Shown: positions 1-17,339 of the stretch, piece by piece | Numbering within the stretch: the stretch's first letter is position 1 | Layout of the letters: each line of letters starts with the position of its first letter | From: Jiella pacifica | Lineage (GTDB): Bacteria; Pseudomonadota; Alphaproteobacteria; Rhizobiales; Rhizobiaceae | DNA length: 64,000 nucleotides | NCBI RefSeq assembly: GCF_010500815.1 | Contig: NZ_JAAAMG010000006.1 | Span: 186,001-250,000, forward strand | Reading direction: 5' to 3' | Position numbers and translations under genes: made by a program | The notes under the pieces: generated by a model | The model's input: the letters and a program-made list of their open reading frames with translations, nothing else | What the model was told of the DNA's origin: nothing | Databases searched by the model: none

Positions 1-291
1 TTCATTGACCTGATCGGCAAGCCCCATGGCGCCAGCCCTTTCGTTGCAGAAATTCTTGAAGCGAACCTGTCGGAATCGTCTCGGAAAAAACGGTTCAGTC
101 CGCTCTCAACTGAAGAGCCATGGTGGTCTTTTCAAGACTTGGACTGCATCCGGCCGCCCGCCGGCCCGCCTTTGCGCACGGTTCAGACCGACAGCGTCAG
201 ACCCGTGCTGGCGACGTACGCTCCGGAAAACACGGCTCTCATCTCGGCCTCCAGCTTCTCCAGCCAGTCGTCGGTACGCGAGACGTCGTGA
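1..291 (+). CDS. 3' end of an unidentified protein (partial, cut by window edge)
   Basis: The first reading frame is open from base 1 to a TGA at 289-291. The part before base 180 reads like real protein, with a hydrophobic start (FIDLIGKPHGASPF) and a charged, Trp-containing tail (EEPWWSFQDLD). I do not recognise the family. The last 109 bases lie antisense to the 3' end of the convergent MBL hydrolase gene, so either the two genes truly overlap tail to tail or this frame is fortuitous beyond base 180. No start is visible because the window begins inside it. Treat it as a hypothetical partial gene. Confidence 0.33.
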   Translation, partial: FIDLIGKPHGASPFVAEILEANLSESSRKKRFSPLSTEEPWWSFQDLDCIRPPAGPPLRTVQTDSVRPVLATYAPENTALISASSFSSQSSVRETS

Positions 292-1010
292 TGGAAGGCG
301 ACGAACCGCTCCACGCCGGCGGCCCGGCAGAGGCGAACGCCCTGCTGCCACGTCGAGTGGCCGAAGCCGACATAGCGCTCGAAGTCCTCGTCCGTGTAGG
401 TCGAATCGTAGATCATCATCTCTGCACCGGCGATGAACTCGACCAGCGCGGCGTCGATCGTCCCGGCCTCGTGCTCGGTGTCGGTGATGTAGCAAAGCGC
501 CCGGCCCTCGAACTCGACCCGGTAGCCGACCGCCCCGTTCGGATGATTCAGCCGGAAGGTTTTCACGAGGATGCCGTCGCCAAGACCGATCTCGTCCGGC
601 GGCTGGAAGTTGCGATAGTCGATCCTGGCGGCAAACTGCTTCGGCGTCACCGGGAAATAGGGCGGGCACATGAACCGGGCGACCATGTGCCGGCAGGTGG
701 TGCCGTCCTGGAGATGGCCGGCGAAGATCCGCGCCGAGACATGGTCCTTGTAGAGCGGGATCAGGAAGGGCAGGCCCATCACGTGATCGAAGTGGCAATG
801 GGTGAGAAGGACGTCGAAATCGTTGACGATCTTCTCCTCGTAGAGCTTGCGGCCGGCGGCGACGATGCCCGTGCCGGCATCCAGGAAGATCACCCTTTCG
901 CCGCAGCGCAGCTCGATGCAGCTCGTGTCACTGCCATAACGGGTGTTGGGGGCGGCCGGCGCAGGGATCGAGCCGCGGGCGCCCCAGATGGTGAGCTCGA
1001 AACGGCTCAT
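183..1010 (-). CDS. MBL-fold metallo-hydrolase, possible cyclic-phosphodiester hydrolase
   Basis: This 275-residue protein has the metallo-beta-lactamase fold signature. It shows the metal motif HCHFDH at residues 71-76, His156 in HPNG, Asp177 in ITDTEH, and late histidines in GHSTW (218) and FHHD (240-241). The N-terminal WGARGSIPAP and NTRYGSDTSC segments are typical of the PhnP/RNase Z-like branch, which cleaves phosphodiesters, and class II cyclic-nucleotide phosphodiesterases also belong to this fold. No signal peptide is seen, so it is probably cytoplasmic. Its start overlaps the stop of the cyclic-nucleotide-binding gene by four bases (ATGA), so the two are co-translated. A role in degrading the nucleotide sensed by that neighbour is inference; the hydrolase class itself is secure. 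Confidence 0.88.
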   Translation of the reverse strand: MSRFELTIWGARGSIPAPAAPNTRYGSDTSCIELRCGERVIFLDAGTGIVAAGRKLYEEKIVNDFDVLLTHCHFDHVMGLPFLIPLYKDHVSARIFAGHLQDGTTCRHMVARFMCPPYFPVTPKQFAARIDYRNFQPPDEIGLGDGILVKTFRLNHPNGAVGYRVEFEGRALCYITDTEHEAGTIDAALVEFIAGAEMMIYDSTYTDEDFERYVGFGHSTWQQGVRLCRAAGVERFVAFHHDVSRTDDWLEKLEAEMRAVFSGAYVASTGLTLSV

Positions 1011-1477
1011 CGACCCCCGCCCTGGCCGGCGGCGAGATTGCGGGCGCGGACCAGCTCGGCATTGGTGTGGCTCAGCCGCTCGGCGAGCCCGCGCATCACT
1101 TCGGCCGCGACCTCCGGGAACTGCCGCACCAGCTGTAGGAACGCCTCCTTGCGGACCCTGAGCGCCGAGACGGGCGTCTTGGCGGTCACCGTCGCGGTGC
1201 GCGGCACGTCGCAGAGGATCGCGATCTCGCCGACGACGTCGCCGGTCTTCAGGCTGGCGACGACGAAATCGCCGGTCTCGGCCGCGATCGAGACGTCCGC
1301 CTCCCCCTCCATCAGGACGAAGGCGGCATCTCCCTGCTCGCCCTGCCGGCAGAGAACCTGGCCTTGGCGATACATCACCGTCTCGGCGGTGTAGGCGATC
1401 AGCTTCAGCCGGCTGGGTTCGATGCCGGCGAACAGCGGCACGGCCCTCAACAGGTCGATCTCGGATTTCAGAAGCAT
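1007..1477 (-). CDS. Stand-alone cyclic nucleotide-binding domain protein
   Basis: This 156-residue protein is a single cNMP-binding (Crp-type) beta-barrel domain with no helix-turn-helix or other effector domain. The phosphate-binding cassette is intact: GEIAIL begins at residue 83, with Glu84 and then PRTATV with Arg93, the residues that contact ribose and cyclic phosphate in CAP and PKA. The C-terminal third is helical and charged. It is therefore a sensor or docking subunit rather than a DNA-binding regulator. It lies downstream of the degenerate ABC gene after a 226-base gap and overlaps the MBL hydrolase by four bases. With a nucleotidyl cyclase gene at 10.5 kb, cAMP is the most plausible ligand, though only by inference. 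Confidence 0.88.
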   Translation of the reverse strand: MLLKSEIDLLRAVPLFAGIEPSRLKLIAYTAETVMYRQGQVLCRQGEQGDAAFVLMEGEADVSIAAETGDFVVASLKTGDVVGEIAILCDVPRTATVTAKTPVSALRVRKEAFLQLVRQFPEVAAEVMRGLAERLSHTNAELVRARNLAAGQGGGR

Positions 1478-1703
1478 CGTCTTCGATCCTTGCGCAACGA
1501 CGACGGCAGTGCGGACGATCCGTTCGCGATTTCAGCCTGCATGCCGGCAGTGTTCACGACACAAACACCACGAGTATCAAACGTCCGGGCATGCACCGGC
1601 AGGGCTGCGACATTTTTGCCCCGCGAACTTTGCACGGCGGCGGATGCCGCATCAATAGCACGGCCCCCGGGCTTTCTTTGGCATAGCAGCGTCACCGAGG
1701 CGG

Positions 1704-4406
1704 TCACGACACCTCCATCGGCGGGACGGCCTGGCTTTCCGGGTCCTGCATGCGCCCCTCCCGGAAGGTGATCCGCCGGTCGAAGAGATCGGCATGTTCC
1801 GCATGGGCGAGCACCCAGACGATCGTCTGACGATCGACGCCGAGTTCCTGGCGCGACTTCAGGACGGCGGCGGTGATGCGCCGCTGGCTCTCGCCGTCGA
1901 GGGCGGAAAGCGGCCGGTTGAGGACGAGGAGATCGGGCCGCTTCAACAAGGCCCGGGCGAGCGTCAGCTTCTGCTGCTGGCCGGCGGCGAGCCGCTTGGC
2001 GCCGCTGCCGATGTCGAAGGACAGGCCGAGATCGAAGACGACGTCGTAAAGGCCGCTCTCGCGCAGGGTTTCGGCCAGCACGGTGTTGATCCGCCCCTGC
2101 GCCTCGGCGTAGCGGGTGACGATGCGCCCGAACAGGATGTTGTCCTGCAGGCTCGCGGCGCGGTTCACCCCGGCCGGATCGTGAAGGGACACCGCCCCGG
2201 CGAGATCCGGGCCGAGGCCATCGGCAAAGTGATCGCGCGCCGCGACGATTGCCTGCTTGAGGCCGGCATCGAGCAGCCCCAGCCGATGGCGCGGCTCGAC
2301 ATAGCCGAAGGCGAGACGCTGGAAGGCACGCCGGTCCTTGTCCTCGCGCTTGCCATCCCCGTCGCTGCGGCGCAGGGCCGCCCGGTAGCGCTCGACGTCC
2401 TCGGGGGACATCAGGTCGATGTCGTCGAGCAACGGATTGTCGGCCGACAGGTCTCCGAAGATCTCGACCAGCGTCTCGGCGATCTGCCGTCCCATGACGA
2501 ACAGCTTGTCGTCGAGGCCGCTCGCCACGAGCGCCGCCTTGACCGACGGCCGGTCGGCCAGCGGCTGGTCGGCATCGGCATCCGGATCGGCGGTGCCGAA
2601 GACGAGGTTTTCGAAGACGGAGGCGTAGTCGGAGTAGCGGCTCCTGTCGAAGCTCTCGAAATAGTCTTCGTCGCCGCCCTCGATCAGCCGCTGGCGGAAA
2701 CGCGCGCGGGCGCTGAGGATCTGGTCGGACACGCCGTCTGTGAGGATCTCCGGCAGCTTGCCGCGCAAGCCGAAGCGGGCGATCTCGGACCTGAGTTCGA
2801 CGATCGCCAGCACCTCGGCGAGCCGGGCGGGAAGGGTTTCCGGCCCGCTCACGCCGGCCGCCTCGTAATCGATCCAGTCGTCGCGGATGTCGAGGTCGAG
2901 ATTGCCGGAGAGTCGCGCTTCCTCGAGCCGTGACGCCTCGTCCCGGCCGCTGCGCTCCTGCCGGCGCATCGGCACGTGCTTGAGCCCGTAGGTCAGGGCG
3001 TCCCGGACGCTCATCTGCGGCAGGAACAGGCCCGACGCCGAATAGCCGAGGCGGCGGCCGGGAATGTAGTCCGGCATGGAATCGAGCGTCGTGCCGGCAA
3101 AGGCGACGCGCCCGCCGGACGGCTGGACGAGCCGCACCAGGGCTTCGGCGAGATATTCGCCGCCCCCGCCCGGCGGGCCGACCAGCGCCACCGCCTCGCC
3201 CGGCGCCAGCTTCATCGTCGTCGGAAAGAGCAGCTCGTTGCCGGCGTCGTCGCTGACCTTCAGGCCCGACACCATCACCTCGCCGTCGAGCCGCGGCGGG
3301 GCGTCGAAGCTGACCCTCTGGGTGTTCGCCGGGACGAGATCCGACATGACGAACTGCTCGCGGATCTGGGCATATTTGGACTGGACGTCGACCCGGCCCT
3401 GATCCCAGGCGATCAGTTCCTTCAAGGGCGCCGGCAGGTCCTTGTAGGCGGCGATGACGGCGACCAGCTGGCCGATGTCGAGCTTTCCCTGAATGACCAG
3501 ATAGCCGCCGCCGAGATAGAAGATGAACGGCGTCATCTGGGCGATCAGATTGTTGAGGAAATTCACGAAGAACTTCCACTGGTAGAAATCGTAGCGGATC
3601 GCCAGGATCTTGCCGAGCCGGCTACCGAGTTCCGCCCGTTCCCAGTTCGACGTGTCGTTGGTGCGGATCGAGGCGATCCCCTCGACCACCTCGCCGATGC
3701 GGCCGGACAGGATGCGGGCGGTCAGCTGGCGATTGCGCGCAAGCACCACCAGCCGGCGACGCATGCGCGGGATCAACAGGATCTGGACCAGAACGATGCC
3801 GCCGGCGACCATGCCGAGCCAGAAGTTCTGCAGGACGATGAAGAACAGCGCCGTCAGCGCCTGGCTCAGGAGGAGCGCCGGGTCGGCAAAGGCGCTGCCG
3901 CCGAAGCCGCCGACCGGCTCGGTCTCGTCCTTGATCATCGAGGCGATCTCGGAGCCGCGCACCTGCTTGAAACGGCCCGAGGGAAACCGCAGCACCCGGT
4001 CGACCAGCTGGAAGCGGAGACGGCGCAGCAGCCGCTCGCCGAGCTTGCCCTTGTAGGTGGACAGGTAGAACTTGAAGAGCCCGTTGACGATGACGAAGAA
4101 CAGGAAGGTGAAGGATAAAGCGACGAGCACCCCGAACCGGTCGAGTTCCATCCCCTCGAAGACGTGCCATTGCCCCCCGCCGAGGAAATCCGGCAGGGGT
4201 ATGAAGAAGCTGAACAGGGTCTGGGTCTGCCCGGGCTGCCAATCGCCCGAGATCGGCCCGTTGACGATGCGCTTCGGCAGATCGAGCGTCAGGTAATAGA
4301 GCGGCAGCGACAAGGCCAGGACGCCGAACAGCCAGAGCTGCTGGCCCTTGGTATAGCGCCAGACGTAGCGGAAGACGCTCTCGTCGAGTTCGTCGGCCGG
4401 CTTCAT
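1704..4406 (-). CDS. ABC exporter-like half transporter with degenerate, expanded nucleotide-binding domain
   Basis: The protein has 900 residues, against about 600 for a usual half exporter. Residues 20-330 are an exporter-type membrane domain with hydrophobic segments near 27-46, 92-116, 180-215 and 280-320. The nucleotide-binding region follows from about 370. The P-loop reads GPPGGGGEY at 410-418, so the essential Lys is missing. Walker B reads LLVLNRP, with Asn830 and Arg831 in place of Asp-Glu. The signature is LAAGQ (806-810), while the H-loop His868 is kept. About 330 extra residues separate the P-loop from the signature and repeat the xxENxxFG helix motif. It is probably unable to hydrolyse ATP alone. 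Its start overlaps the upstream ABC ATPase stop by four bases (ATGA), which fixes the start. The substrate is unknown; a surface glycan or precursor fits the neighbours. Confidence 0.85.
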   Translation of the reverse strand: MKPADELDESVFRYVWRYTKGQQLWLFGVLALSLPLYYLTLDLPKRIVNGPISGDWQPGQTQTLFSFFIPLPDFLGGGQWHVFEGMELDRFGVLVALSFTFLFFVIVNGLFKFYLSTYKGKLGERLLRRLRFQLVDRVLRFPSGRFKQVRGSEIASMIKDETEPVGGFGGSAFADPALLLSQALTALFFIVLQNFWLGMVAGGIVLVQILLIPRMRRRLVVLARNRQLTARILSGRIGEVVEGIASIRTNDTSNWERAELGSRLGKILAIRYDFYQWKFFVNFLNNLIAQMTPFIFYLGGGYLVIQGKLDIGQLVAVIAAYKDLPAPLKELIAWDQGRVDVQSKYAQIREQFVMSDLVPANTQRVSFDAPPRLDGEVMVSGLKVSDDAGNELLFPTTMKLAPGEAVALVGPPGGGGEYLAEALVRLVQPSGGRVAFAGTTLDSMPDYIPGRRLGYSASGLFLPQMSVRDALTYGLKHVPMRRQERSGRDEASRLEEARLSGNLDLDIRDDWIDYEAAGVSGPETLPARLAEVLAIVELRSEIARFGLRGKLPEILTDGVSDQILSARARFRQRLIEGGDEDYFESFDRSRYSDYASVFENLVFGTADPDADADQPLADRPSVKAALVASGLDDKLFVMGRQIAETLVEIFGDLSADNPLLDDIDLMSPEDVERYRAALRRSDGDGKREDKDRRAFQRLAFGYVEPRHRLGLLDAGLKQAIVAARDHFADGLGPDLAGAVSLHDPAGVNRAASLQDNILFGRIVTRYAEAQGRINTVLAETLRESGLYDVVFDLGLSFDIGSGAKRLAAGQQQKLTLARALLKRPDLLVLNRPLSALDGESQRRITAAVLKSRQELGVDRQTIVWVLAHAEHADLFDRRITFREGRMQDPESQAVPPMEVS

Positions 4407-6406
4407 GCCGGGGTCTCCAGGGCCGCCACGGCGGCGGCGACGGCCTCGGCGACGCCCTTGCGCTCGCCCCCCTCGTCGAGGAAGCGGAGGTCGGCGGCGC
4501 GCACGAAATGGCCGGGCCTTGCCTCGAGAAGCGGCGGCAGCGGCTGGTCGGCGGCGACCGTGAACGGCGCCGGCCAATCCCGGCGCCCGATCAGCCCGGC
4601 TTCCGGCAGGTGCGAGAAATCGAGCGGTCGGGCGAGATCGGCGTGGGGCACCGCCTCGATCAGAAGCTTGGTATAGGGATGCAGCGGCCGGCGGAACAAT
4701 TCGGCCCGCGGCGCCAGCTCGACGACCGCCCCGTCGCACATCACGACGATCCGGTCGGCGATGTGGTTCACCACCGCGAGATTGTGGGTGATGAACACGT
4801 AGGTCAGCCCCGACAGGCGCTGCAGATCCTTCAAAAGATTGAGGATCTGCGCCTGGACCGAGACGTCGAGCGCGGCCACCGGCTCGTCGCAGATGAGGAT
4901 TTCCGGTTCGAGGGCGAGAGCCCGCGCAATGCCGATCCGTTGGCGCTGGCCGCCGGAGAAGCTGTGCGGATAGCGCCCGGCAAAGCTCGGATCGAGCCCG
5001 ACGGCGGAAAGCAGCCGCGCGACCTTCTCGCGCCGCTCGGCCGGCTTGCAGAGATCATGGATCTCCAACGGTTCCGACAGGATCGCTCCGACTGTCATCC
5101 GCGGGTCGAGGGAGGAGAACGGGTCCTGGAAGATGTACTGCATCCGCTTGCGGACCTTGAACATCGTCTCGCGATCGGCGGAAACGAGATCGACCGATCC
5201 GCCGCCGCCATCCCCGCCATGCAGCACGATCGAGCCGGCATCGACGGGCACGGCCCGCATCAGCGCCCGCGCCAGCGTCGTCTTGCCGGAGCCCGATTCG
5301 CCGACGAGCCCGAGGCACTCGCCGCGCTTCACCGTCAGCGAGACGTCGGCGAGCGCCCGGATCACCCGCGCCGGTGCCCGGCCGACGAGACGACGGTCGC
5401 CGCGCAGCGAAAAGCTCTTCTGCAGCCCCCGCGCCTCGACCAGCGGCTCGCCCTTCGGCCCGCTCGCCTTCGGCTTGACCAGCGCGTCGGCATCGATCCT
5501 GATCTCGCGGATCGGCGTCAGCCGGCGGCGCTCGGTATCGGAAAAATCCGGCACCGCCTTCATCAGCGAGACGAGATAGGGATGGCTGGGCGCCGAAAAG
5601 ATCGTCTCGGCGGGACCCGATTCGACGATCCTGCCGTGATGCATGACGACGACCTCCTCCGCCAGATTGGCGACGACGCCGAGATCGTGGGTGATCAACA
5701 ACACCGCCATGTCGAGTTCGGCCTGGAGGTCCTTCAGGAGCTTGAGGATCTGCGCCTGCAGCGTCACGTCGAGGGCGGTCGTCGGCTCGTCGGCGATCAA
5801 GAGCGGCGGCCGGCACATCAGCGCCATGGCGATCATCGCGCGCTGGCGCAGCCCGCCGGAGAGCTCGAACGGATACATCCGCACCGCCCGCTCGGGCTCG
5901 GGAAAGCGGACGAGCCGCAAGGTCTCGGCCGTCAGCTCGCGGATCTCGGCCTTCGACGCCTTGCGGTGGATCGCCGCCATCTCGCCGATCTGATCGCCGA
6001 GCGTGTGGAGCGGCGAAAACGCCGTCATCGGCTCCTGGAAGACCATGGCGATGGAGCGGCCGCGGATCGAGCGCAATTTCGGCGACGCGCGCGGGATCGC
6101 GGCGAGATCCAAAAGGCCGAGATCGCCGTCGCGAAACAGGATCTTGCCCGAGGTGATCACGCCGTTCTTCGGCAGGAGCCCGAGGATCGCCTGGGACGTC
6201 ACCGACTTGCCGGAGCCGGATTCCCCGACGAGCGCGACGGTGCGCCCCGGGGCGATCGTCATCGAGAACCCCGACACCGCCTTGGTGACGCCGGCCATGG
6301 AGCGAAATTCGACGGACAGATCCTCGACCGACAGAAGCGCCGTTTCGGCGCGGTCGCTACGGATCGAAGGCGATGCCAGGGACGATAGCATCGCAGCATC
6401 ACTCAT
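4403..6406 (-). CDS. Dipeptide/oligopeptide-type ABC transporter ATPase, two fused domains (YejF/DppDF-like)
   Basis: This 667-residue protein carries two complete ABC domains. The first has GESGSGKS (61-68), signature LSGGLRQR and Walker B LLIADEPTTALD. The second has another GESGSGKT, signature FSGGQRQR and ILICDEPVAALD. The Dpp/Opp family marker HPYxxxLMxAVP follows domain 1, and HPYTKLLIEAVP follows domain 2. This is the YejF architecture of peptide and microcin C importers. The ATG at 6406 was chosen because GAGGGA lies about nine bases upstream, while an earlier start at 6484 has no such site. No permease or binding-protein genes adjoin it, which is odd; it is coupled instead to the ATPase-dead exporter downstream, and glycosyltransferase genes lie upstream. 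Confidence 0.9.
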   Translation of the reverse strand: MSDAAMLSSLASPSIRSDRAETALLSVEDLSVEFRSMAGVTKAVSGFSMTIAPGRTVALVGESGSGKSVTSQAILGLLPKNGVITSGKILFRDGDLGLLDLAAIPRASPKLRSIRGRSIAMVFQEPMTAFSPLHTLGDQIGEMAAIHRKASKAEIRELTAETLRLVRFPEPERAVRMYPFELSGGLRQRAMIAMALMCRPPLLIADEPTTALDVTLQAQILKLLKDLQAELDMAVLLITHDLGVVANLAEEVVVMHHGRIVESGPAETIFSAPSHPYLVSLMKAVPDFSDTERRRLTPIREIRIDADALVKPKASGPKGEPLVEARGLQKSFSLRGDRRLVGRAPARVIRALADVSLTVKRGECLGLVGESGSGKTTLARALMRAVPVDAGSIVLHGGDGGGGSVDLVSADRETMFKVRKRMQYIFQDPFSSLDPRMTVGAILSEPLEIHDLCKPAERREKVARLLSAVGLDPSFAGRYPHSFSGGQRQRIGIARALALEPEILICDEPVAALDVSVQAQILNLLKDLQRLSGLTYVFITHNLAVVNHIADRIVVMCDGAVVELAPRAELFRRPLHPYTKLLIEAVPHADLARPLDFSHLPEAGLIGRRDWPAPFTVAADQPLPPLLEARPGHFVRAADLRFLDEGGERKGVAEAVAAAVAALETPA

Positions 6407-6538
6407 CGACACGTATCCCTCTTTGCGCCGCCGGGCGGCCAGACGCTTCGCTGCCTTCTGGCAAAGCTTTGACGTCATTATCACGACAGTTGCGGCCGTT
6501 CGCCAGAAGAATCGCAGGCGGACGCAGCGGCAAGATGC

Positions 6539-7678
6539 TCACGCCCCGATCAGCCGCGCGATCGCCGCGGCGGTGGCGTCGGCGCCTTCGAGGTCGATCG
6601 TCGGCACCGGCCGGTCCCGCCGCCCATCGGCCCTGACGATCGCCGAGGCGAGGCGTTCGGGCGAGAGATCCGCGGTTTCCACCACGTCGAGGAGCCCGAG
6701 CTTTTCCATGCGCGCCGAGCGAAACACCTGCTCGGTCTCTTCGCCGTCGTCATAGGGCACGACCACCGCCGGGATCTTCGCCCGCATCAGGTTCATCACC
6801 GTGTTGTAACCGGCCTGGGAGATCGACAGGGACGCGCCGTCGAGCAGTGCCTGGAAGCGCGGCGTGAAGCGCTCGACGACGGTGCGCGCGCCGGCCATCG
6901 CCTCGAGCTCGGCGTAGTCGGCCTCGCCCGCCCGCGGCCCGGCGAGGAAATGCCAGACCTTGTCCCGGATCGTCGGCGGACACAGCGCCCGCGCCTCGAT
7001 CGCCGTGCGCAACAGATTGCCGGCCGCCGCGCCGCCGCCGGCCGAAACGACCACCCGGTCGTTCCTCTCGATCGGCCCGCGCTCGGCCGCCTCGGTGACA
7101 TAGCCGGTATAAGAGACGAGATCGGCGATCTCGCCCGCATGGGGATAGGTCTCGGCGAAGGTGAAGAGCTTCGGGTCGGAATGGACCAGCACGGCGGCAA
7201 GATGCCGGCGCGCCAGCTCGGCGGCGAATGTCGACCGCTCGGGATGCTTGGTCGCGACCAGGATGTCACGCACCGAGGTGACGCATTTCACCCGGGGCGC
7301 GTCCTTCGTCGCCCGCTCCATCAAAGGCACCAGCTCGAAGCGAAAGCGCCAGCGGCCGAAGGGAAACATCTCCATCAGGACGACGTCGGGACGCACGCTT
7401 TCATAGAGGTCGAGCAGCGCCTCGGTGCGCCGCGCTTTCCATGCCGCGTCGATCGGAGCGCCCGTCTCGTCGTAGAGGGTCTTGAAGTCCGCCCCCTTGA
7501 TCGACACCGGCGGCAGCTGGACGACATGCGCCTCCCTGAACGGCATCTCCGGCATCGGATGGCCGCCGAGGGCGACGGTGACGTTTATGCCCCGCGCGGC
7601 CATGGCCCGGGTGATCAGCTCGCCGCGCCGCAGATGACCGACGCCGAGAAGATGCTGCACGTGAAACAGAACCCGCAT
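6539..7678 (-). CDS. Glycosyltransferase, GT-B fold (MurG/GT28-like, COG4671 type)
   Basis: The 379-residue protein starts MRVLFHVQHLLGVGHLRRG, the N-terminal nucleotide-fold signature of predicted GT-B transferases related to MurG. The C-terminal half has SAGGGAAAGN, a segment LDGASLSISQAGYNTVMNLM and PAVVVPYDDGEETEQ, matching the donor-binding region of this family, where an AGYNT turn and a late Glu contact the sugar nucleotide. It has no membrane segments and is probably cytoplasmic or membrane-associated. Its start shares one base with the stop of the preceding GT4 gene (TGATG). It resembles the first gene of the trio (8850-10112), suggesting an old duplication. Donor and acceptor are unknown. 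Confidence 0.85.
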   Translation of the reverse strand: MRVLFHVQHLLGVGHLRRGELITRAMAARGINVTVALGGHPMPEMPFREAHVVQLPPVSIKGADFKTLYDETGAPIDAAWKARRTEALLDLYESVRPDVVLMEMFPFGRWRFRFELVPLMERATKDAPRVKCVTSVRDILVATKHPERSTFAAELARRHLAAVLVHSDPKLFTFAETYPHAGEIADLVSYTGYVTEAAERGPIERNDRVVVSAGGGAAAGNLLRTAIEARALCPPTIRDKVWHFLAGPRAGEADYAELEAMAGARTVVERFTPRFQALLDGASLSISQAGYNTVMNLMRAKIPAVVVPYDDGEETEQVFRSARMEKLGLLDVVETADLSPERLASAIVRADGRRDRPVPTIDLEGADATAAAIARLIGA

Positions 7679-8853
7679 CACACGGCCCTTTGCATTGTGG
7701 AAGGCATGAAAGCTGCGGCACCGAAACGGCGACGCGTCTCGACGAGCATCGTGTCGAGCCGCTCGGCGGCCGCGGCGACGTCGTGCCTCGCCATCGCCCG
7801 GCGGCGCGCGGCCTCGCCGAAGGATGCGCGCCGCTCGTGATCGAGCATGAGACGGATCGCATCGGCAAAGGCCGCCGCGTCCCCCTGCGGCACGAGGAGG
7901 CCGGTTTCGCCGTCGGCAACGACGCCGGCGACGCCGGGGCTCGTTCCCGCCACGACCGGAAGGCCCGCCGCGCCGGCCTCGATCAGCGCCATGCCGAAGG
8001 CCTCCTTGACGGCCGGCCAGACAAGGACGTCGGCGGCAGAGAACAGCGCCGGCATCGCCTCGGACGCAACAGCGCCGAGGAAGGCCGCCTTCACGCCCCT
8101 TTCGGAAAAGGCAGCGCGTATCTCGCGCTCGGCCGGGCCGGTTCCGGCGATCAGAACTTCGAAGGCGTCCGGGACGACGAGAGACAGCGCCTCGGCGAGC
8201 AGCCGGTAGGAGTCGAGCTTCTGGTCGGCCCGCATCATCGCCGCCGTCACCAGCCATGGCTTTTCGGCATCGAGACCGTGCCTTGCGGCGATGTCCCGGC
8301 GGCTCCGTTCGCGGCCCGCATGGGCCGCCAGGAAAGGCCCGGCATCGATGAAAGGGGAGAGCGCCTCCATCGGCGCGCCGGGCTTGAGATGCGGCACGAC
8401 GCCCGCCGCATCGTTGGGGTTCAGCGTCACGACGAGATCGGCGCGGGCAAGCGCTTTCAGGCTCGCTTGGTAGCCGGCATCGAAGCGGCCGCCCAGCTGC
8501 TTGTTCGCCACCGAGGCCTCGGCGACGACATAGGGAATGCCGAGGGCCGTCGAGACGGCCGGCCCGAGATGGTCCGGCGCCTTGTGATAGAGGTGATAGG
8601 TGAACCAGAGATCCGGCCGCAGCGCCGGATTTTCGAGGCGCCGCACGAGCCGCGCCGCGAGCCGGGCTCCGATGCCGGCCAGTCGCTCCTGCCGTTCCGG
8701 ATCGCCGCGGTCGTAGCTCCTGAAACGTGAGGCGAGCCCCACCTCGTGGCCGGCCACCCGCAGCGCCGCCATCAGGTTGCGGGCGAGGAGCCGGTCGCCG
8801 GAGGGAACCGGGTCGTCCGGCGCCTTCATCGGCGCGTAGAAGGCGATCCTCAT
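7678..8853 (-). CDS. Glycosyltransferase family 4 (GT-B)
   Basis: This is a 391-residue GT4-type enzyme. The N-terminal domain begins MRIAFYAPMKAPDDPVPSGD, with the conserved PSGD loop near residue 18. The C-terminal Rossmann domain has LIAGTGPAE and then KEAFGMALIEAGAAGLPVV, the retaining E-x7-E motif that binds the nucleotide-sugar donor. It would transfer a hexose or derivative from NDP- or GDP-sugar onto a glycan or lipid-linked acceptor. The start overlaps the upstream gene by four bases and its stop overlaps the downstream glycosyltransferase by one, so all three transferases are one translationally coupled unit. Family assignment is firm; the linkage made cannot be read from sequence. 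Confidence 0.9.
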   Translation of the reverse strand: MRIAFYAPMKAPDDPVPSGDRLLARNLMAALRVAGHEVGLASRFRSYDRGDPERQERLAGIGARLAARLVRRLENPALRPDLWFTYHLYHKAPDHLGPAVSTALGIPYVVAEASVANKQLGGRFDAGYQASLKALARADLVVTLNPNDAAGVVPHLKPGAPMEALSPFIDAGPFLAAHAGRERSRRDIAARHGLDAEKPWLVTAAMMRADQKLDSYRLLAEALSLVVPDAFEVLIAGTGPAEREIRAAFSERGVKAAFLGAVASEAMPALFSAADVLVWPAVKEAFGMALIEAGAAGLPVVAGTSPGVAGVVADGETGLLVPQGDAAAFADAIRLMLDHERRASFGEAARRRAMARHDVAAAAERLDTMLVETRRRFGAAAFMPSTMQRAV

Positions 8854-10112
8854 GGCCGGGCGAAGCGCTGAACCTGCAGCGGCGCCTCGGGGAAAGCCGC
8901 GTCGACGGCGGGGTTCCGCCCCCCCACCGGCCGGCCTTCGGCGACGATCGCGTCGACCAGCCGGCGGATGGTATCGACGCCGCCGAGAAGCTTGGGAATT
9001 GCCGCCGCCTGGGGCCGGCTCTGGGTCGGCAGCCCCCGAATCGCGTCCGCCATGATCGCGGCGTTCTCGACCTCGTCGTCGAGCAGCATGCGGGCAAGGC
9101 CGAGATCCTCGGCGCGCGAGGCCCGGATGAACTGTTCCAGCCGCGGATGCCGGCGCGGCACGATGACGGCCGGCTTGTCGAAGGAAAGGATCTCGCAGAA
9201 GGTGTTGTAGCCGCCCATGGCGACGAGACCCTCGGCCCGCTCGATCAAAGGTTCGATCGAGGCGGCGAAGGTGATGAGGTCGACGCTGTCGAGCTGTCTT
9301 CCCCGCGCCTGGAAATCCGCCGCGAAGGATGATTCCATGAAAGGACCGAGCACGATCTTCGCCCGCACCCCAATCGTCTCGTCGCTCTCATAGGCTCTCA
9401 GCACCCAGTCGACGAGCCGCGCGCCGTCGCCGCCCCCGCCGGTGGTCACCAGCACATAGGGCCGCTCGCCGATGCGGATCCGCTCCGGCAGTGCGCCGGA
9501 GGGCTCGTCCGCGCGGGGCAGGTAGCCGGTGAACACCGCGTGCTCGCGGACCCTGTTCGAGACGCCGATCCCCTCCAGCGGGTCGCAGATCTCCGGAAGA
9601 CCGTAGATCCAGACGTCATCATAGAGCTCTTCCACCGCCGCGAAGGCCCCCTTGCGATGCCATTCGTCGGCGAGCCGGGAAGGCTCGTCCATGATGTCGC
9701 GCAGGCCGAGGACGAGCCGGCAGCCGGTGGACTTGAGGAAGGCGAGGCTTTCACCGACCTCGCCGCGCATGCCGAGCGGCTCCTTGTCGACGAGGAAGAT
9801 GTCGGGATCGAAGATTTCGGCGGTCTTGGTGATGATCGCCGAGCGGATCTCGGTCAGATCCTCGATCGAAAGACCGGGGTTGGAGGGCGCATAGCTGTCG
9901 GCACCGAGCTTGACGACGCCGGGAACCCGGATGAAATCCACCTGCGGCGGGAAGCTGAAGGAGCCGACGACGGGCGATCCGGCGATGATCAGGATCGAGG
10001 TATCCGGCCGGTGGTCGACCAGCGCCTGGGCGATCACCCGCGACCGTCTCAGATGACCGAGCCCGAAAGTGTCGTGGCTGTAGATCAGGATGCGTGGAGA
10101 CCGAGACTGCAT
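8850..10112 (-). CDS. Glycosyltransferase, GT-B fold (COG4671 type)
   Basis: This 420-residue protein opens ILIYSHDTFGLGHLRRS after a short leader, the same GLGHLRR signature as the gene at 6539. Later motifs are VTTGGGGDGA and AMGGYNTFCEILSFDKPAVIVPR, the donor-binding half of MurG-like enzymes. The ATG at 10112 was chosen because AGGAG lies six bases upstream; a start eight codons earlier (10136) has no good ribosome-binding site. It is the first gene of the overlapping glycosyltransferase trio and is transcribed divergently from the nucleotidyl cyclase. It probably makes part of a surface polysaccharide or glycolipid together with the deacetylase and acetyltransferase genes at 13-14.7 kb. 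Confidence 0.86.
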   Translation of the reverse strand: MQSRSPRILIYSHDTFGLGHLRRSRVIAQALVDHRPDTSILIIAGSPVVGSFSFPPQVDFIRVPGVVKLGADSYAPSNPGLSIEDLTEIRSAIITKTAEIFDPDIFLVDKEPLGMRGEVGESLAFLKSTGCRLVLGLRDIMDEPSRLADEWHRKGAFAAVEELYDDVWIYGLPEICDPLEGIGVSNRVREHAVFTGYLPRADEPSGALPERIRIGERPYVLVTTGGGGDGARLVDWVLRAYESDETIGVRAKIVLGPFMESSFAADFQARGRQLDSVDLITFAASIEPLIERAEGLVAMGGYNTFCEILSFDKPAVIVPRRHPRLEQFIRASRAEDLGLARMLLDDEVENAAIMADAIRGLPTQSRPQAAAIPKLLGGVDTIRRLVDAIVAEGRPVGGRNPAVDAAFPEAPLQVQRFARP

Positions 10113-10466
10113 GGCGACTCCTGACGCAGCCTTCATTCAAGTCCATCGCCGACGCGGCGAGCTTGACTTCCCACCCACGCCGACGCGAAGCGCTCGCCTT
10201 CGAATGCCGCATCGGGATCTTCCCGGCGCATTTCGGCCAAACCCGCTCCGATCGCCTTACTATTGCGTCACCCTTCGGCGATCAAGCGAGGCGTGCGCAA
10301 TAGCGGCGAGTTTGACGGAGGCCGGCCAGGATGGCGGGTGCAACGTCGTGCGAGTGTTTCCGAAGCGTCACACACAGTTGACTTCGCCGAGCCGTTGCGC
10401 GGCTGTCGAATTCGACGAAAAGCCATCGGCACCTGCCTATCGAGCCGGTGGAGTCAGGAAGGCAAA
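10113..10466. promoter_or_regulatory. Divergent promoter region between glycosyltransferases and cyclase
   Basis: This 354-base non-coding stretch separates two divergent genes and must hold both promoters. I found no confident sigma-70 boxes, CRP-type palindrome or terminator in it. Short open frames cross it, but they lack ribosome-binding sites and convincing composition. Confidence 0.5.
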
Positions 10467-11795
10467 ATGCTGAACGGTCTCTTCGTGCCGCGCCCAACCG
10501 GCGCCATGCCGCCGCGCATCCTCGCCGATATCGTGCGCTTCGACGCGGACAGCGAAAGGCTGACCGGCTGGGTGCAGTTCGCCGTCGCCGCCTTCATTCT
10601 CGGCCTCTATCTGGTCGCCCCGAGGCCGGTCGATTCCATGTCGCACAGCCTCGTGCCGCTCGGCCTCGGCATCTATCTCGGCCTGACGCTGCTGCGCCTC
10701 TACCTCTCCTATCGCGCCTCGCTGCCGAAGCTCTTCCTGTTCGCCTCGCTTCTGGCCGACGTGGCGCTGCTCTATGCCCTGATCTGGTCGTTCCATCTGC
10801 AATACGAGCAATCGCAAGCCTTCTCCCTGAAAGCACCGACAGTCCTCTACGTCTTCATTTTCATCGCGCTGAGGGCGCTGCGCTTCGATCCGATCTGGGT
10901 GCTTCTCACCGGCCTTGTCGCGGCGCTCGGCTGGGTTCTGCTGGTCATTCACGCCATCGCCGAGGATGGGACCGACGCGATCACCCGCAGCTTCGTCGAC
11001 TATATCGACGGCACGCGGATCCTGATCGGCGCCGAGGTCGACAAGATCGTCGTCATGGTGGCGGTCTCGGCGATCCTCGCCATCGCCGTCGCGAGAGCCC
11101 AGAAGCTCGTCCTCCGGACGGCGCGCGAACAGGTCGAGCGGGCCGAGATCCGCCGCTTCCTGCCGGCGCCGGTCGAGGCGGCGATCACGAGCTCTGAGGA
11201 CGCCATCGTCGCCGGCGAGGGCATCGAGCGCAGCGCCGCGATCATCGTCCTCGACATCCGCGGCTTCTCCGCCTTCGCCGCCGGGCGCGATCCGAAGGCG
11301 GTGGTGGCGACGCTGGTCTCCCTCCACGCCATCGTCGTCCCGATCGTCGAGAAGCATGGCGGCATGATCGACAAATATCTCGGCGACGGCATGCTGGCGA
11401 CTTTCGGCGCGGCGCATGAAAGCGAGACGCCGGCCGCAGATGCGCTGGCCGCGCTCTGCGAGATCGTCGAGGCGACGAAGGGCTGGAGCGAGGACAATGC
11501 CGATGGATCCGGCCTCAGCCTGGCGCTCAACGGCGCGGCGACCGCCGGCCGGGTCATCTTCGCCGCCCTCGGCGATGCCGCGCGGCTCGAATATACGGTG
11601 ATCGGCGAGGCGGTGAACCTCGCCGCCAAGCTGGAAAAGCACAACAAGGCCGAGGGGACGATGGCCCTGACCACGGCGCGGACGCTCGAGGCCGCCATCA
11701 TCCAAGGCTACCGCCCCCCGCGGTCGTTTGCCCACCTGACCGACCGGCGGGTGGCCGGTGCCGGCGAACCGCTGGGGCTGGTGGTGGTGGCGTGA
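10467..11795 (+). CDS. Membrane-bound class III adenylate/guanylate cyclase
   Basis: The protein has 442 residues. The N-terminal half holds about six hydrophobic segments (roughly residues 33-50, 55-80, 83-102, 113-133, 140-160 and 190-212). The C-terminal half is a class III cyclase domain making cAMP or cGMP from the NTP. Metal-binding aspartates are D263 (VLDIRGF) and D307 (LGDGML). Lys303 and Thr377 occupy the purine-specifying positions, a pair typical of class IIIb adenylate cyclases, so ATP is the likelier substrate. The transition-state Asn384 is present, but the Arg usually four residues on is Lys388. The start was chosen for AGGAAGG eight bases upstream. It is divergent from the glycan genes and probably serves the cNMP-binding protein encoded at 1007-1477. 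Confidence 0.87.
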   Translation: MLNGLFVPRPTGAMPPRILADIVRFDADSERLTGWVQFAVAAFILGLYLVAPRPVDSMSHSLVPLGLGIYLGLTLLRLYLSYRASLPKLFLFASLLADVALLYALIWSFHLQYEQSQAFSLKAPTVLYVFIFIALRALRFDPIWVLLTGLVAALGWVLLVIHAIAEDGTDAITRSFVDYIDGTRILIGAEVDKIVVMVAVSAILAIAVARAQKLVLRTAREQVERAEIRRFLPAPVEAAITSSEDAIVAGEGIERSAAIIVLDIRGFSAFAAGRDPKAVVATLVSLHAIVVPIVEKHGGMIDKYLGDGMLATFGAAHESETPAADALAALCEIVEATKGWSEDNADGSGLSLALNGAATAGRVIFAALGDAARLEYTVIGEAVNLAAKLEKHNKAEGTMALTTARTLEAAIIQGYRPPRSFAHLTDRRVAGAGEPLGLVVVA

Positions 11796-13063
11796 GGAGC
11801 AGCCATTCTGGCTTAAACTGGTGATACGCTTTATCGTTGCGATGAATTGCTTTTTGCAAGCCGGGAATCTAACTCCGAAGATAGCTAGAGACTTAATGTT
11901 TTTAATTGAACATAGGCTGCACCCTGTATGACAGTTGAATACGGGTACGTTGCGTACATTGACGAAGCGGGCGACGACGGCCTTCGAGCCGTCAAGCCTC
12001 GTACGGTTCCGGGGTCGAGCGAATGGCTTATTCTGAGCGCCACCGTGATCCGCGCCACCAATCAGGCACATACCAAAGATTGGATTGAAAATCTTCGCGG
12101 AAGATTGCGCGTTCGGCAGGCAAAAACAATACATTTTCACAAACTTCGCGCTGATAAAAAACTCTTAGCATGTGAATATCTCGCAAAATTGCCCGCAAGA
12201 TATTTTATCGTAGCCTCCAATAAAAAGAATATTGAAGGTTATACAAATCCAGATGCTTCTAAAATTCCTTCGCAGTGCTGGTTTTATTGCTGGATGACAC
12301 GTGTACTTTTGGAGCGCGTGACTCATTATGTTGCGGCGCGCTCGCTTGTTGATTTTGGTGAATCAAAATTTCTGCGATTGGAATACAGCGAAAGAGGGGG
12401 ACTACGATACTCCCAGATGCACGCGTACTATGAGTGGCTTAAAATGAAGCGAAGCAGGCCGTTCCTGCCATGGGGCCAGATTGACTGGAGCGTTATGCAT
12501 CGGGACTTGTTTTTCGTGTATCCTCACTGGGATCGCGAAGGGCTGCAATTAGCAGATGTTGTAGCAAGTGCGTTCTTTAAGTCATGTGACAAGCACGATA
12601 CTGGCTCTTGTGACCCAACTTTCGCGAAAGCGCTCCTACCTCGCATGGCCAAAGATAGGTCACGCAGCCAAATATCGGGATATGGAGTGAAATTATTACC
12701 GAGCCTATCAAAAGCGTCGCTCGATCAAGATCAACAAGCCATTTTTCGCTTCTACGGATATCCCGAACAGTGGTGGGACCCAGCGGCGTTTTCCAAATGA
12801 GCGAATAGCTCAGCACTCTTGCCAAGCGTCTCATCTGGCGAGGCAGGGTTCATCTCTACCCACCCCTACCAACTGGCGTCACCACCAAACGCACCATAGC
12901 ATGAGACCTGGAAAAACGAAAGAGATTCAATGACATGTTCAACCCATTGAAACGACTCTTCAATCAGACATTCTGTCAAATTTTGCCGTTTATCTCCTTG
13001 CTAGTGTGACGCAAAATCATCGCAGCGAACGGAAAGGCTACTGGAGATCGGAGCTTCTGAACC
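11796..13063. other. Low-G+C inserted segment (likely horizontally acquired)
   Basis: Composition drops abruptly after the cyclase stop and recovers at the GNAT gene. For example, 12121-12180 has 19 G+C in 60 bases, whereas flanking genes are visibly GC-rich at third positions. The only substantial gene is the DUF3800 protein at 11928-12800. The flanks (132 bases before, 263 after) are also AT-rich and show no integrase, insertion sequence, tRNA or obvious direct repeats. The segment separates the deacetylase/GNAT pair from the glycosyltransferase operon, consistent with insertion into a once-continuous locus. Confidence 0.6.
11928..12800 (+). CDS. DUF3800 domain-containing protein
   Basis: This 290-residue protein begins VAYIDEAGDDG, the N-terminal acidic signature of DUF3800 (canonical YIDESGD), a predicted RNase H-like nuclease fold. 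It continues with a conserved-looking IHFHKLRADKK near residue 64 and ends with LQLADVVASAFFK, whose late Asp is characteristic of the family. The biochemical role of DUF3800 is not established; members often occur in mobile or defence-associated contexts. Codon use is AT-rich (many AAA, ATT, TTA) and unlike all neighbours, indicating transfer. The ATG at 11928 has no strong Shine-Dalgarno sequence. No partner gene is visible, so if it acts in defence it does so alone or with genes elsewhere. Confidence 0.8.
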   Translation: MTVEYGYVAYIDEAGDDGLRAVKPRTVPGSSEWLILSATVIRATNQAHTKDWIENLRGRLRVRQAKTIHFHKLRADKKLLACEYLAKLPARYFIVASNKKNIEGYTNPDASKIPSQCWFYCWMTRVLLERVTHYVAARSLVDFGESKFLRLEYSERGGLRYSQMHAYYEWLKMKRSRPFLPWGQIDWSVMHRDLFFVYPHWDREGLQLADVVASAFFKSCDKHDTGSCDPTFAKALLPRMAKDRSRSQISGYGVKLLPSLSKASLDQDQQAIFRFYGYPEQWWDPAAFSK

Positions 13064-13924
13064 TCAAGGCAGCTTCTGATCGAGCAGCAGCACCTCCGAA
13101 TAGAGATGCCCGACATCCCGCGCCGCGACGTCGATGGAGCGGTACCAGCGTGGCAGCGGGATCGTTTCGACCGTGCCAGGATCGTCGCCCGCGTTCATCA
13201 TCCGCCGGTCGATGGAAAGCACCGCCGTCTCGCCGACGCAGACGAGAGAGGCGATCGCCGCCGCATGCGCCGAAAGAAAGTCGTAGGCGGAGGCATGCAG
13301 CACGTCGTGATAGGCGACGCCCGCGCCCTTCAGCTTGCGCTGCCAGACCAACCAGGTGCCCTGCCCGGTGCCGCTTTCGACAAAGGCGTGGTGGATGTCG
13401 AGGCCGTGATGGTCGTCGAGCATCCGGCGCTCCTCCGCCGTCAGCCGCTCGCGGATCTCGGCCGGATCGCGGATCGGCCGCAATCCCTCCTCCGTCTCGC
13501 CCGGCCGGAACAGGCTGCGGGCGTCGTCGAGGATGGCAAAGCCCAATGCCCGGATCTTGCGCCCCGTCGCCCGCCGCGCCGTCATCGTCTGATAGGTGAC
13601 GCCGGGCTTCGCCATGCCTGACCGGAGCAGTTCGTCGCCGATCCCCGTGCCGCGATAGGCCGCCGCCAGATACCAGGAGGAGAGGTCGCAGAAGCGGCGG
13701 GGCCCGAGCGACGTCGGGCGGTCCGAATAGATCGTCCCCATGAAGCCGACGACCGCGCCTTCGTCCTCCACCAGCCAGCCGCGCTCGACCTCGGGCGGCC
13801 GGAAGGGATAGTCGAGGAGGATGCGCCACGTGTCGGCCGGGATGCGGGCGTTCATCCGCTGGTGCAGGAAGGCTGCGACGGCGCCGACATCCGCCTCTCC
13901 GGCCGGCCGCACCCGCGCCGTCAT
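13064..13924 (-). CDS. GNAT-family N-acetyltransferase
   Basis: This 286-residue protein starts MTARVRPAGEADVGAVAAFL, a GNAT beta1-alpha1 start. It carries the acetyl-CoA pyrophosphate loop AYRGTGIGDELL near residues 94-105, matching (R/Q)xxGxG/A. The remaining 170 residues form a second domain I do not recognise. It probably transfers an acyl group from acyl-CoA to an amine, and in this setting an amino sugar is a natural guess. Only one base separates it from the preceding polysaccharide deacetylase gene, so the pair is co-transcribed; N-deacetylation followed by re-acylation of a glycan would be consistent. The gene ends next to the low-G+C segment. Confidence 0.82.
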   Translation of the reverse strand: MTARVRPAGEADVGAVAAFLHQRMNARIPADTWRILLDYPFRPPEVERGWLVEDEGAVVGFMGTIYSDRPTSLGPRRFCDLSSWYLAAAYRGTGIGDELLRSGMAKPGVTYQTMTARRATGRKIRALGFAILDDARSLFRPGETEEGLRPIRDPAEIRERLTAEERRMLDDHHGLDIHHAFVESGTGQGTWLVWQRKLKGAGVAYHDVLHASAYDFLSAHAAAIASLVCVGETAVLSIDRRMMNAGDDPGTVETIPLPRWYRSIDVAARDVGHLYSEVLLLDQKLP

Positions 13925-13925
13925 C

Positions 13926-14750
13926 TCAGCGGACCGGCGTTTCGGCGAGGAGCGTCGTGATCGGCAGGAAGCGGATCGCCGGATGCGAGCCGAGCCGGCC
14001 GAGCAGTCGCTCGAGGAACGACCACGTCGCCTCGTCGTGGGCGAGATGGTGGGTGAGGATGCCGAAGGGCTCGGCCGGATCGGTGCGGCCGAGCCGCCGG
14101 TCCTCCAGCCGTTCGGCGAACAGCCGGATCAGCTTCTCCGCGCCCGCAAAGGCCGGCCCCTCTTTCCAGGTCAGAAGGTCGAGATGGGCGTTGATGACGG
14201 CGCAGCGCGGCGGCAGGACGAGCGGCGCGTCTTCCGTCGAGCCCTCGCCGCCCTTGCCCCCATCCCCCTGGCCCTCGAAGTGCCGCGGGCCAAAGCTCGA
14301 CAGGCCGAAATAGCCCTGCTGCTGCAGACCGGCGGCGACCGCCGGGTCGATCCGGTTCCACGGCGGAACGAGGATCGGCAAAAAGCTCGCGCCGAACTCG
14401 CGCATCAGCATGCGCATGCCCTCGCCGAGTTCGGCCAGCACCGCCTTCGCCGGCCTGTCGCCGCCGCATTCGACGGCTCGCTTGCCGGCGCCCGCGTGGT
14501 TCACATGGGCAAAGCCGTGCTGCAGCACGGTGACGCCGGGTGCCGACAGGGCGCCGACGAGGCCGGGCTCCATCCTCGCCGGTACGGCGGCGATCGCCAG
14601 CGGCAGGCGGTGGCGCCGCGCCATGGCGACGAGCCGCGTCAGTTCCGGCGTCGCCGTCGCCGCGTCGTCGTCCCGCCACCACAGCGGCACGGCGCGGCCC
14701 TCGGCCGTCCATCGATCCAGTTCCTGGTCGAGTTGGTCGAATGTCTGCAT
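13926..14750 (-). CDS. Polysaccharide deacetylase family protein (NodB-like)
   Basis: The 274-residue protein has LWWRDDDAA at residues 23-31, where the Asp pair corresponds to the catalytic base and metal ligand of NodB/CE4 enzymes. Late in the protein ILTHHLAHDE supplies the His motif, and VPPWNRIDP resembles the motif that lines the active site. It should remove N-acetyl (or O-acetyl) groups from a polysaccharide or lipid-linked sugar. No convincing signal peptide is present, so a cytoplasmic or precursor-level substrate is possible. It is the first gene of a two-gene unit with the GNAT transferase and probably belongs functionally with the glycosyltransferase genes at 6.5-10.1 kb. Confidence 0.83.
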   Translation of the reverse strand: MQTFDQLDQELDRWTAEGRAVPLWWRDDDAATATPELTRLVAMARRHRLPLAIAAVPARMEPGLVGALSAPGVTVLQHGFAHVNHAGAGKRAVECGGDRPAKAVLAELGEGMRMLMREFGASFLPILVPPWNRIDPAVAAGLQQQGYFGLSSFGPRHFEGQGDGGKGGEGSTEDAPLVLPPRCAVINAHLDLLTWKEGPAFAGAEKLIRLFAERLEDRRLGRTDPAEPFGILTHHLAHDEATWSFLERLLGRLGSHPAIRFLPITTLLAETPVR

Positions 14751-17335: not shown

Positions 17336-17339
17336 AGTG

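Follow-up and report, generated by a model that had tools for sequence, protein, structure and literature searches.

In a 64,000-nucleotide stretch of the Jiella pacifica genome (contig NZ_JAAAMG010000006.1, positions 186,001 to 250,000; hereafter the window), we analyzed a gene set at positions 183-14750 in which a 900-amino-acid (aa) pseudo-ABC (ATP-binding cassette) protein, P0003 (1704..4406, minus strand), consisting of an exporter-type transmembrane domain and an enlarged, degenerate nucleotide-binding domain (NBD), is encoded beside a protein with a free cyclic nucleotide-binding domain (CNBD). We proposed, with a probability of about 0.5, that the two proteins form an ABC-fold membrane device that is controlled by a cyclic nucleotide, may work independently of ATP, and serves an envelope glycan. 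The core would be a two-part inner-membrane assembly of the exporter-shaped pseudo-ABC protein, predicted by analogy to be a homodimer, and a dedicated CNBD, either adjacent or C-terminally fused. Its NBDs would combine the loss of the canonical ATPase motifs with a tripled helical segment, and cGMP or cAMP bound to the CNBD would set the conformation of the pseudo-NBD, with the result that the transmembrane part opens, closes, or reorients. The usual client would be an envelope glycan or glycolipid built by GT28 and GT4 glycosyltransferases (GTs) and trimmed by a NodB-like protein; toward this glycan, the candidate roles of the device are moving it, sensing it, or positioning enzymes. In the order of the window, including the window itself, one or two class III cyclases would often make the messenger locally, and a phosphodiesterase of the metallo-beta-lactamase (MBL) fold may remove it. 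The initial annotation of this DNA had suggested local second-messenger control of glycan export or assembly rather than global Crp signalling, which we consider a reasonable idea.

The initial annotation named the comparison of gene neighborhoods as a check of its module, and the gene set was found to recur. Relatives of P0003 (E <= 1e-40) were present in 95/297 genomes of the order, representing 56/123 genera, and an ABC profile (E <= 1e-60) matched 98/289 genomes of the class, in 73/224 genera; a number of these matches are incomplete, as in G117, where only residues 521-879 match. On a draw from the whole phylum, the profile matched 26/299 genomes, and the only one of these 26 that lay outside the class (by kinship) covers just a part of the transmembrane domain. 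Relatives of the ABC protein were also found in plasmid records of Rhizobium (144), Sinorhizobium (80), Azospirillum (7), Ruegeria (6), and others. We tallied 128 loci, comprising 25 named loci (the window included), 57 from the order (out of 60 stretches from 54/95 matching genomes, with the transmembrane-only relatives L116-L118 excluded), 6 borne on plasmids, and 40 from the class outside the order (from 40/98 matching genomes); the weak loci L034-L039, whose matches were generic ABC ones spanning 48-121 residues of the query, were excluded. These neighborhoods were hand-picked for diversity and their fractions are not random-sample estimates, the gene counts per locus are lower bounds because of contig ends, and the window contributes two entries to each of the motif, CNBD, and cyclase tallies.

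After inspection, a CNBD was adjacent to the ABC gene or fused to it in 126/128 loci; the profile scan gave 124, to which L131 (with a split ABC frame) and L172 (with the CNBD 18 bases past the ABC frame) were added. In 13/128 loci, the CNBD was fused to the C-terminus of the ABC protein as a single polypeptide. A cyclase gene was present at 18/25 named, 34/57 order, 4/6 plasmid, and 4/40 class loci, and an MBL gene at 17/25, 29/57, 0/6, and 1/40, respectively. Counted by genus in the order set, the CNBD was found in 42/43, a GT28-type gene in 33/43, the cyclase in 26/43, and the MBL gene in 22/43. Thus, the module of maker, sensor, and eraser described by the initial annotation is real in the lineage of the window, but a universal module of this kind was rejected on the class counts for the cyclase and the MBL gene: because these two genes are mainly additions within the order, the conserved core across the class is the ABC protein and the CNBD only.

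The motifs of the ABC protein set it apart from an ordinary exporter, and almost all members of the family carry degenerate ATPase motifs. Pfam assigned ABC_membrane (PF00664) and ABC_tran (PF00005) to the protein, an exporter-type transmembrane part followed by the NBD; the Walker A motif, however, reads GPPGGGGEY in the window (3153..3179, minus strand), with neither the Lys nor the Ser/Thr. Among the 128 aligned rows, Walker A (GxxxxGK[ST]) was intact in two (L104 and L155) and the Walker B Asp-Glu pair was present in five, the window having Asn-Arg. Position 416, where the Walker A Lys is expected, was R in 42 rows, K in 37, A in 22, and G in 20, and position 417, normally Ser/Thr, was Glu or Asp in 88/128. 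The 37 rows with Lys came from 30 class loci, 6 named loci of other groups, and a single order locus (L104), and Lys was found in 7 rows of a separate 83-row alignment of the named and order loci. The signature positions were partly retained (Leu in 124/128 and Gln in 115/128). We also noted that L104 (7584-10721) encodes a fused ABC-CNBD protein whose Walker A is intact and which may be an ATP-competent relative.

The initial annotation called the ABC protein unusual but missed these degenerate Walker motifs and a tripled helical segment in the NBD. Walker A is usually separated from the signature by about 100 residues, and in P0003 the spacing is about 390. Three related segments lie in the NBD: repeat 1 (residues 446-570; 2697..3071), repeat 2 (residues 572-720; 2247..2693), and repeat 3 (residues 733-835; 1902..2210), all on the minus strand, the last of which includes the signature LAAGQ and the Walker B sequence LLVLNR. 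In hhalign, repeat 1 matched repeats 2 and 3 with probabilities of 91.3% and 94.8%, and repeat 2 matched repeat 3 with 98.4% (E 8e-15), whereas no probability above 5.3% came from 15 control comparisons against other regions of the protein; in addition, the element [DE][AN][LI]x[FY]G occurs in three copies. The AlphaFold2 model of the ABC protein, built from 19 sequences, had a mean predicted local distance difference test (pLDDT) score of 81, and its best Foldseek matches were ABC exporters. The gene is under purifying selection, with a ratio of nonsynonymous to synonymous substitution rates (dN/dS) of 0.15-0.25 overall and 0.08-0.26 in the NBD part when four relatives were compared. With these values, and with most genome matches free of internal stops, a decaying gene was rejected.

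The transmembrane domain alone is encoded in three genomes and on a Pseudosulfitobacter plasmid, as frames of 434-471 aa with 34-38% identity (L116 8392-9807, L117 8034-9377, L118 8594-9898, and L176 8788-10092). A tblastn search with the NBD gave no match within the 15-19.5 kb stretches around these four genes; in L116-L118 the transmembrane frame was the sole match to the ABC and Opp profiles, and the annotation of the Pseudosulfitobacter stretch shows no ABC ATPase. The scanned neighbors of the transmembrane-only genes were catabolic or copper-related. These genes show that the transmembrane fold can be maintained with no NBD attached, and an NBD provided in trans from elsewhere is possible. 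A stronger form of our proposal would make the whole family ATP-free, a cyclic nucleotide-gated glycolipid conduit or flippase that the CNBD switches through the pseudo-NBDs and whose sister proteins dropped the NBD; we regard this form as rather doubtful. Separately, frames of 863-1016 aa in four genomes of one genus (G117:C1:870894-872015, G174, G196, and G272) matched the profile only at about positions 516-892, and they may represent the pseudo-NBD part joined to a different or very divergent N-terminus.

The CNBD protein (156 aa; 1007..1477, minus strand) matched PF00027 at 75.9 bits, with no second domain in Pfam, and carries the phosphate-binding Glu and Arg. Its cassette, GEIAIL...PRTAT, was correctly identified in the initial annotation with E84 and R93, each of which was kept in 81/83 rows of the named and order loci. 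In most rows, R-T-A-T or a sequence near it occurred, and the best matches in the PDB were cGMP-dependent protein kinases, with cAMP-dependent kinases next. A Thr at the position of T94 would favor cGMP, and its presence in 72/83 rows hints at cGMP as the ligand; a statement on cGMP selectivity was sought in PMC10127613, in which the terms were absent. In L163, a Methyltransf_17 (PF12692) gene (11362-11871) lies immediately 3' of the CNBD gene.

As the initial annotation stated, a class III nucleotidyl cyclase is encoded in the window (P0008; 10467..11795, plus strand, ATG at 10467; PF00211, 31.9 bits), but a second one, located just outside, had been missed. P0008 has hydrophobic N-terminal segments by eye and contains the two metal-binding Asp residues, the Lys before GDG, and the Asn, with a Lys where the transition-state Arg usually stands. 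The second cyclase, P0012 (409 aa; L009 16798-18027), lies 3' of the MBL gene and left of the window edge, and because of this position the initial annotation cut the gene set short. P0012 is without the purine-specifying Lys and the transition-state Asn, and it could have no activity, have another specificity, or act as a sensor; for both proteins, we take the motif roles (purine Lys, transition-state Arg and Asn) to be those of class III cyclases in general. From 276 Guanylate_cyc matches in 24 genomes (about 123 Mb), a cyclase would be expected by chance in about 4% of 19.5-kb stretches, so the 34/57 of the order loci represent a strong enrichment, approximate in that the loci were scanned with our own cyclase profile and the base rate was obtained with Pfam. 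By single-linkage clustering, the locus cyclases comprised three main N-terminal types with 32, 31, and 13 sequences (the window counting twice in the first two). Types 0 and 1 can each occur 3' of the MBL gene, in separate loci, and most type 2 genes come immediately after the CNBD gene, a distribution that we read as repeated recruitment of cyclases to the locus. The one type 2 cyclase scanned for domains, which lies beside a CNBD gene (L119 11722-13392), carries a 2Fe-2S ferredoxin domain (PF00111), which hints at a redox input.

With a cyclase next to a cyclic nucleotide sensor, the locus might be taken for a defense system of the Pycsar kind, and the PADLOC models for PycC indeed matched both cyclases (81.1 and 62.7 bits) and those for PycTIR and effectors matched the CNBD (64.4 bits). 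These matches, however, were confined to the cyclase and CNBD domains that the systems share; the scanned proteins contained neither a TIR nor any other effector domain, and the glycan genes are linked to the locus across the class. We therefore rejected this candidate as extremely improbable.

The MBL-fold metallo-hydrolase (275 aa; 183..1010, minus strand; PF12706, 67.7 bits) is a candidate cyclic-nucleotide phosphodiesterase. Its fold does include cyclic phosphodiesterases, as the initial annotation held: the model (pLDDT 86) matched RNase Z, YhfI, PhnP, and Apyc1 in Foldseek, and HxHxDH and the other putative metal ligands were invariant in 47/47 rows. YhfI is reported to prefer cAMP and cGMP over cCMP and cUMP, and Apyc1 to cleave all cyclic nucleoside monophosphates (cNMPs) assayed (PMC9117128); Rv1339 is likewise described as an MBL-fold cyclic-nucleotide phosphodiesterase (PMC9293780). 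The MBL protein resembles these three enzymes in the fold and in HxHxDH but differs from their family in score, since NF041851 covered residues 5-264 at only 54.5 bits against a family cut-off of 400, whereas RNase Z models reached 70.6 bits. Thus, the role as eraser stays that of a candidate, because, by sequence, the protein is at least as close to RNase Z models and structures.

The GT genes point to a surface glycan as the likeliest client. The three genes in the window, GT28b (8850..10112; GT28 C-terminal domain, PF04101), a GT4-type gene (7678..8853; PF00534, PF13692), and GT28a (6539..7678; GT28 C-terminal domain, PF04101), are all on the minus strand, have Pfam GT domains, and were rightly described as overlapping, with neighboring frames sharing 1 to 4 bases. 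GT28a and GT28b were inseparable by profile (all matched best with the GT28b profile) and were counted together as GT28-type; their joint profile matched structures of MurG, which has the GT28 C-terminal domain too. At least one GT28- or GT4-type gene was present in 99/128 loci (18/25 named, 44/57 order, 5/6 plasmid, and 32/40 class), and the GT nearest to the ABC gene in most class loci was of the GT28 type. Another gene recurs within the GT block of class-level loci (L160 3851-4438, L163 3745-4371, and L166 4132-4707); Pfam assigns the L160 copy to the histidine phosphatases, and by eye the L163 and L166 copies look like histidine phosphatases too.

Members of the NodB-like family were present in 67/128 loci. 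The initial annotation had named a NodB-like deacetylase with a GNAT enzyme; the peripheral GNAT acetyltransferase-like protein was recovered (13064..13924, minus strand; PF00583, 27.2 bits), whereas the label NodB-like is a weak one. The protein in question (13926..14750, minus strand), divergent from NodB and polysaccharide deacetylases, had no Pfam match above cut-off, only Autoind_bind at E 0.006, and neither the protein alone nor its profile gave a significant match in the PDB. Among the 22 family members, 6 matched Polysacc_deac_1 (PF01522) weakly (E <= 1, best 0.0012) and 8 matched DUF2334 (E <= 1, best 0.00086). The invariant motifs W.RDDD, HG..H, PPWNR, and HH (D27, D28, H78, H82, P129, P130, H234, and H235) presumably fit a polysaccharide-deacetylase enzyme. 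The GNAT gene was found in 13/25 named loci and in 0/103 others.

In Rhizobium johnstonii 3841 (pRL11) and a strain of Sinorhizobium meliloti (pSymB), the locus lies near a nucleotide-sugar dehydrogenase and an ABC importer gene set, and in the S. meliloti strain a polysaccharide lyase is also nearby. pRL110056, an O-antigen enzyme, is reported as important for root colonization (PMC11103875), and by counting locus tags in fives from repA we infer that it is the dehydrogenase RL_RS30040 at the edge of the locus. The Clr regulon was rejected as an explanation; PMC5498481, in the part considered, treats other pSymB polysaccharide genes, and the locus was not matched to SMb numbers.

An Opp-type fused ATPase (667 aa; 4403..6406, minus strand; two PF00005 domains and oligo_HPY), the end of which shares a 4-base overlap with the ABC start, is encoded between the GTs and the ABC protein and had been omitted from the gene list of the initial annotation. 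The genes on that list were all found at the coordinates given there, as reading frames, with Pfam support for all but the NodB-like one. The Opp-type ATPase scored above the cut-off of PRK11308, a dipeptide-transporter subfamily, and below those of GsiA and YejF, and in other loci its counterpart stands beside Opp permeases and an SBP_bac_5 protein. The linkage of the pseudo-ABC gene to GTs and, in 53/128 loci, to the Opp-type ATPase could suggest a regulatory or scaffold device that does not transport but senses a lipid-linked glycan or the membrane state and, together with a cNMP, controls the GTs or the Opp importer. SUR is an ABC protein that acts as a regulator, and the loss of the motifs with retention of the fold would suit such a role. 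However, the partner of this device is only hypothetical, and the fusions and the NBD-less forms are also found away from GTs; we consider this explanation unlikely.

Several observations weigh against the proposed device. The Walker A Lys is retained in 37/128 rows, and L104 and L155 retain the entire GxxxxGK[ST]. The query-normalized TM-scores of the ABC model against solved exporters were low in Foldseek (0.26-0.41), as would be expected if part of the model has no counterpart. Degenerate nucleotide sites, as in ABCC7, are still able to bind ATP (PMC7756269), and motif loss is therefore no proof of ATP independence. An alternative is an ordinary ATP-driven exporter of a glycan or glycolipid, which would use a non-canonical ATP site or a canonical partner half-exporter encoded elsewhere, with the CNBD merely modulating it. 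The exporter-type fold, the retained signature residues, and the Lys-containing rows agree with this alternative, as do the paired degenerate and canonical sites common among exporters (PMC7756269). On the other hand, a homodimer would carry two degenerate sites, the other nearby ABC-type matches in the named and order loci were of the Opp type, and relatives without any NBD exist. We place an ATP-driven exporter on the unlikely side.

The sensing part of the proposed device is weighed against by two loci (L122 and L139; 2/128) that show no CNBD gene, and by the CNBD of HetC, which bound ppGpp and not cAMP according to PMC10986499; for this reason, the CNBD need not read a cyclic nucleotide. 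Moreover, the class loci outside the order were not enriched in cyclases (4/40, tail probability 0.09). The last point and the resemblance of the MBL protein to RNase Z would also fit an ordinary polysaccharide cluster in which the cyclase, CNBD, and MBL genes have no joint role, which we consider quite improbable given that the CNBD pairing holds in 126/128 loci and includes 13 fusions, and that three cyclase types occur at the same locus. As for the client, 29/128 loci had no GT gene in the stretch examined, only 3/13 fusions had one, and a Ruegeria fusion lies near accD and a folC-type gene. Since 10/13 fusions lacked a GT gene in the stretch examined, a role for the device outside glycan loci is probable as well.

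The genome that contains the window has a size of 5.77 Mb, and the nearest named relatives of the window belong to Jiella; the closest is Jiella avicenniae (Aurantimonadaceae, Hyphomicrobiales), with 92% identity across the ABC protein. On the minus strand, the order of transcription is GT28b, GT4, GT28a, Opp-type ATPase, the 900-aa ABC protein, CNBD, and MBL, with the cyclase gene divergent from GT28b and the GNAT and NodB-like genes past a DUF3800 gene. The latter (11928-12800) interrupts the gene set within a low-GC stretch, was absent from the other loci inspected, and looks like a recent insertion. Two frames adjoining the locus (15614-18053) encode, by eye, a receiver/histidine-kinase protein and a response regulator.

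In bacteria, most of what is known about cyclic nucleotides concerns Crp-type transcription factors. If our proposal is true, a conserved non-transcriptional cNMP effector is tied to envelope-glycan genes in about one-third of the alphaproteobacterial genomes sampled (98/289), and some of the many rhizobial cyclases would gain a direct target, with relatives in the symbionts Rhizobium and Sinorhizobium. The degenerate-motif family and its NBD-less relatives would then represent an ABC fold turned into a ligand-gated device. The locus is amenable to standard genetics in laboratory rhizobia.

No description of the pseudo-ABC/CNBD family was found in one open-access library, among the titles and abstract starts of the matches listed, which is no proof of absence. 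The pseudo-ABC protein has the same transmembrane-then-NBD layout as P-glycoprotein, TmrAB, MsbA, PCAT1, and a cyclic glucan transporter, all among its top Foldseek matches, but it differs from these exporters in its degenerate Walker A and B motifs, in an NBD enlarged by the tripled helical segment, and in its CNBD partner. The locus cyclases share PF00211 and the metal-binding Asp residues with other class III cyclases and differ from the usual ones in lying at a glycan locus, in the Lys for Arg of P0008, and in the missing Lys and Asn of P0012. Among rhizobial polysaccharide loci, a version of the locus is present on pRL11 and pSymB, close to the nucleotide-sugar dehydrogenase. CNBD-coupled ABC proteins are already known, and the nearest described example that we found is HetC of Nostoc, a CNBD joined to an ABC exporter and thus a precedent for the pairing (PMC10986499). 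In HetC, as described there, the CNBD is N-terminal, a C39 peptidase domain is present, and an ATPase residue is required, whereas in the pseudo-ABC family the CNBD is separate or C-terminal, Pfam shows no peptidase domain, and the ATPase motifs are degenerate.

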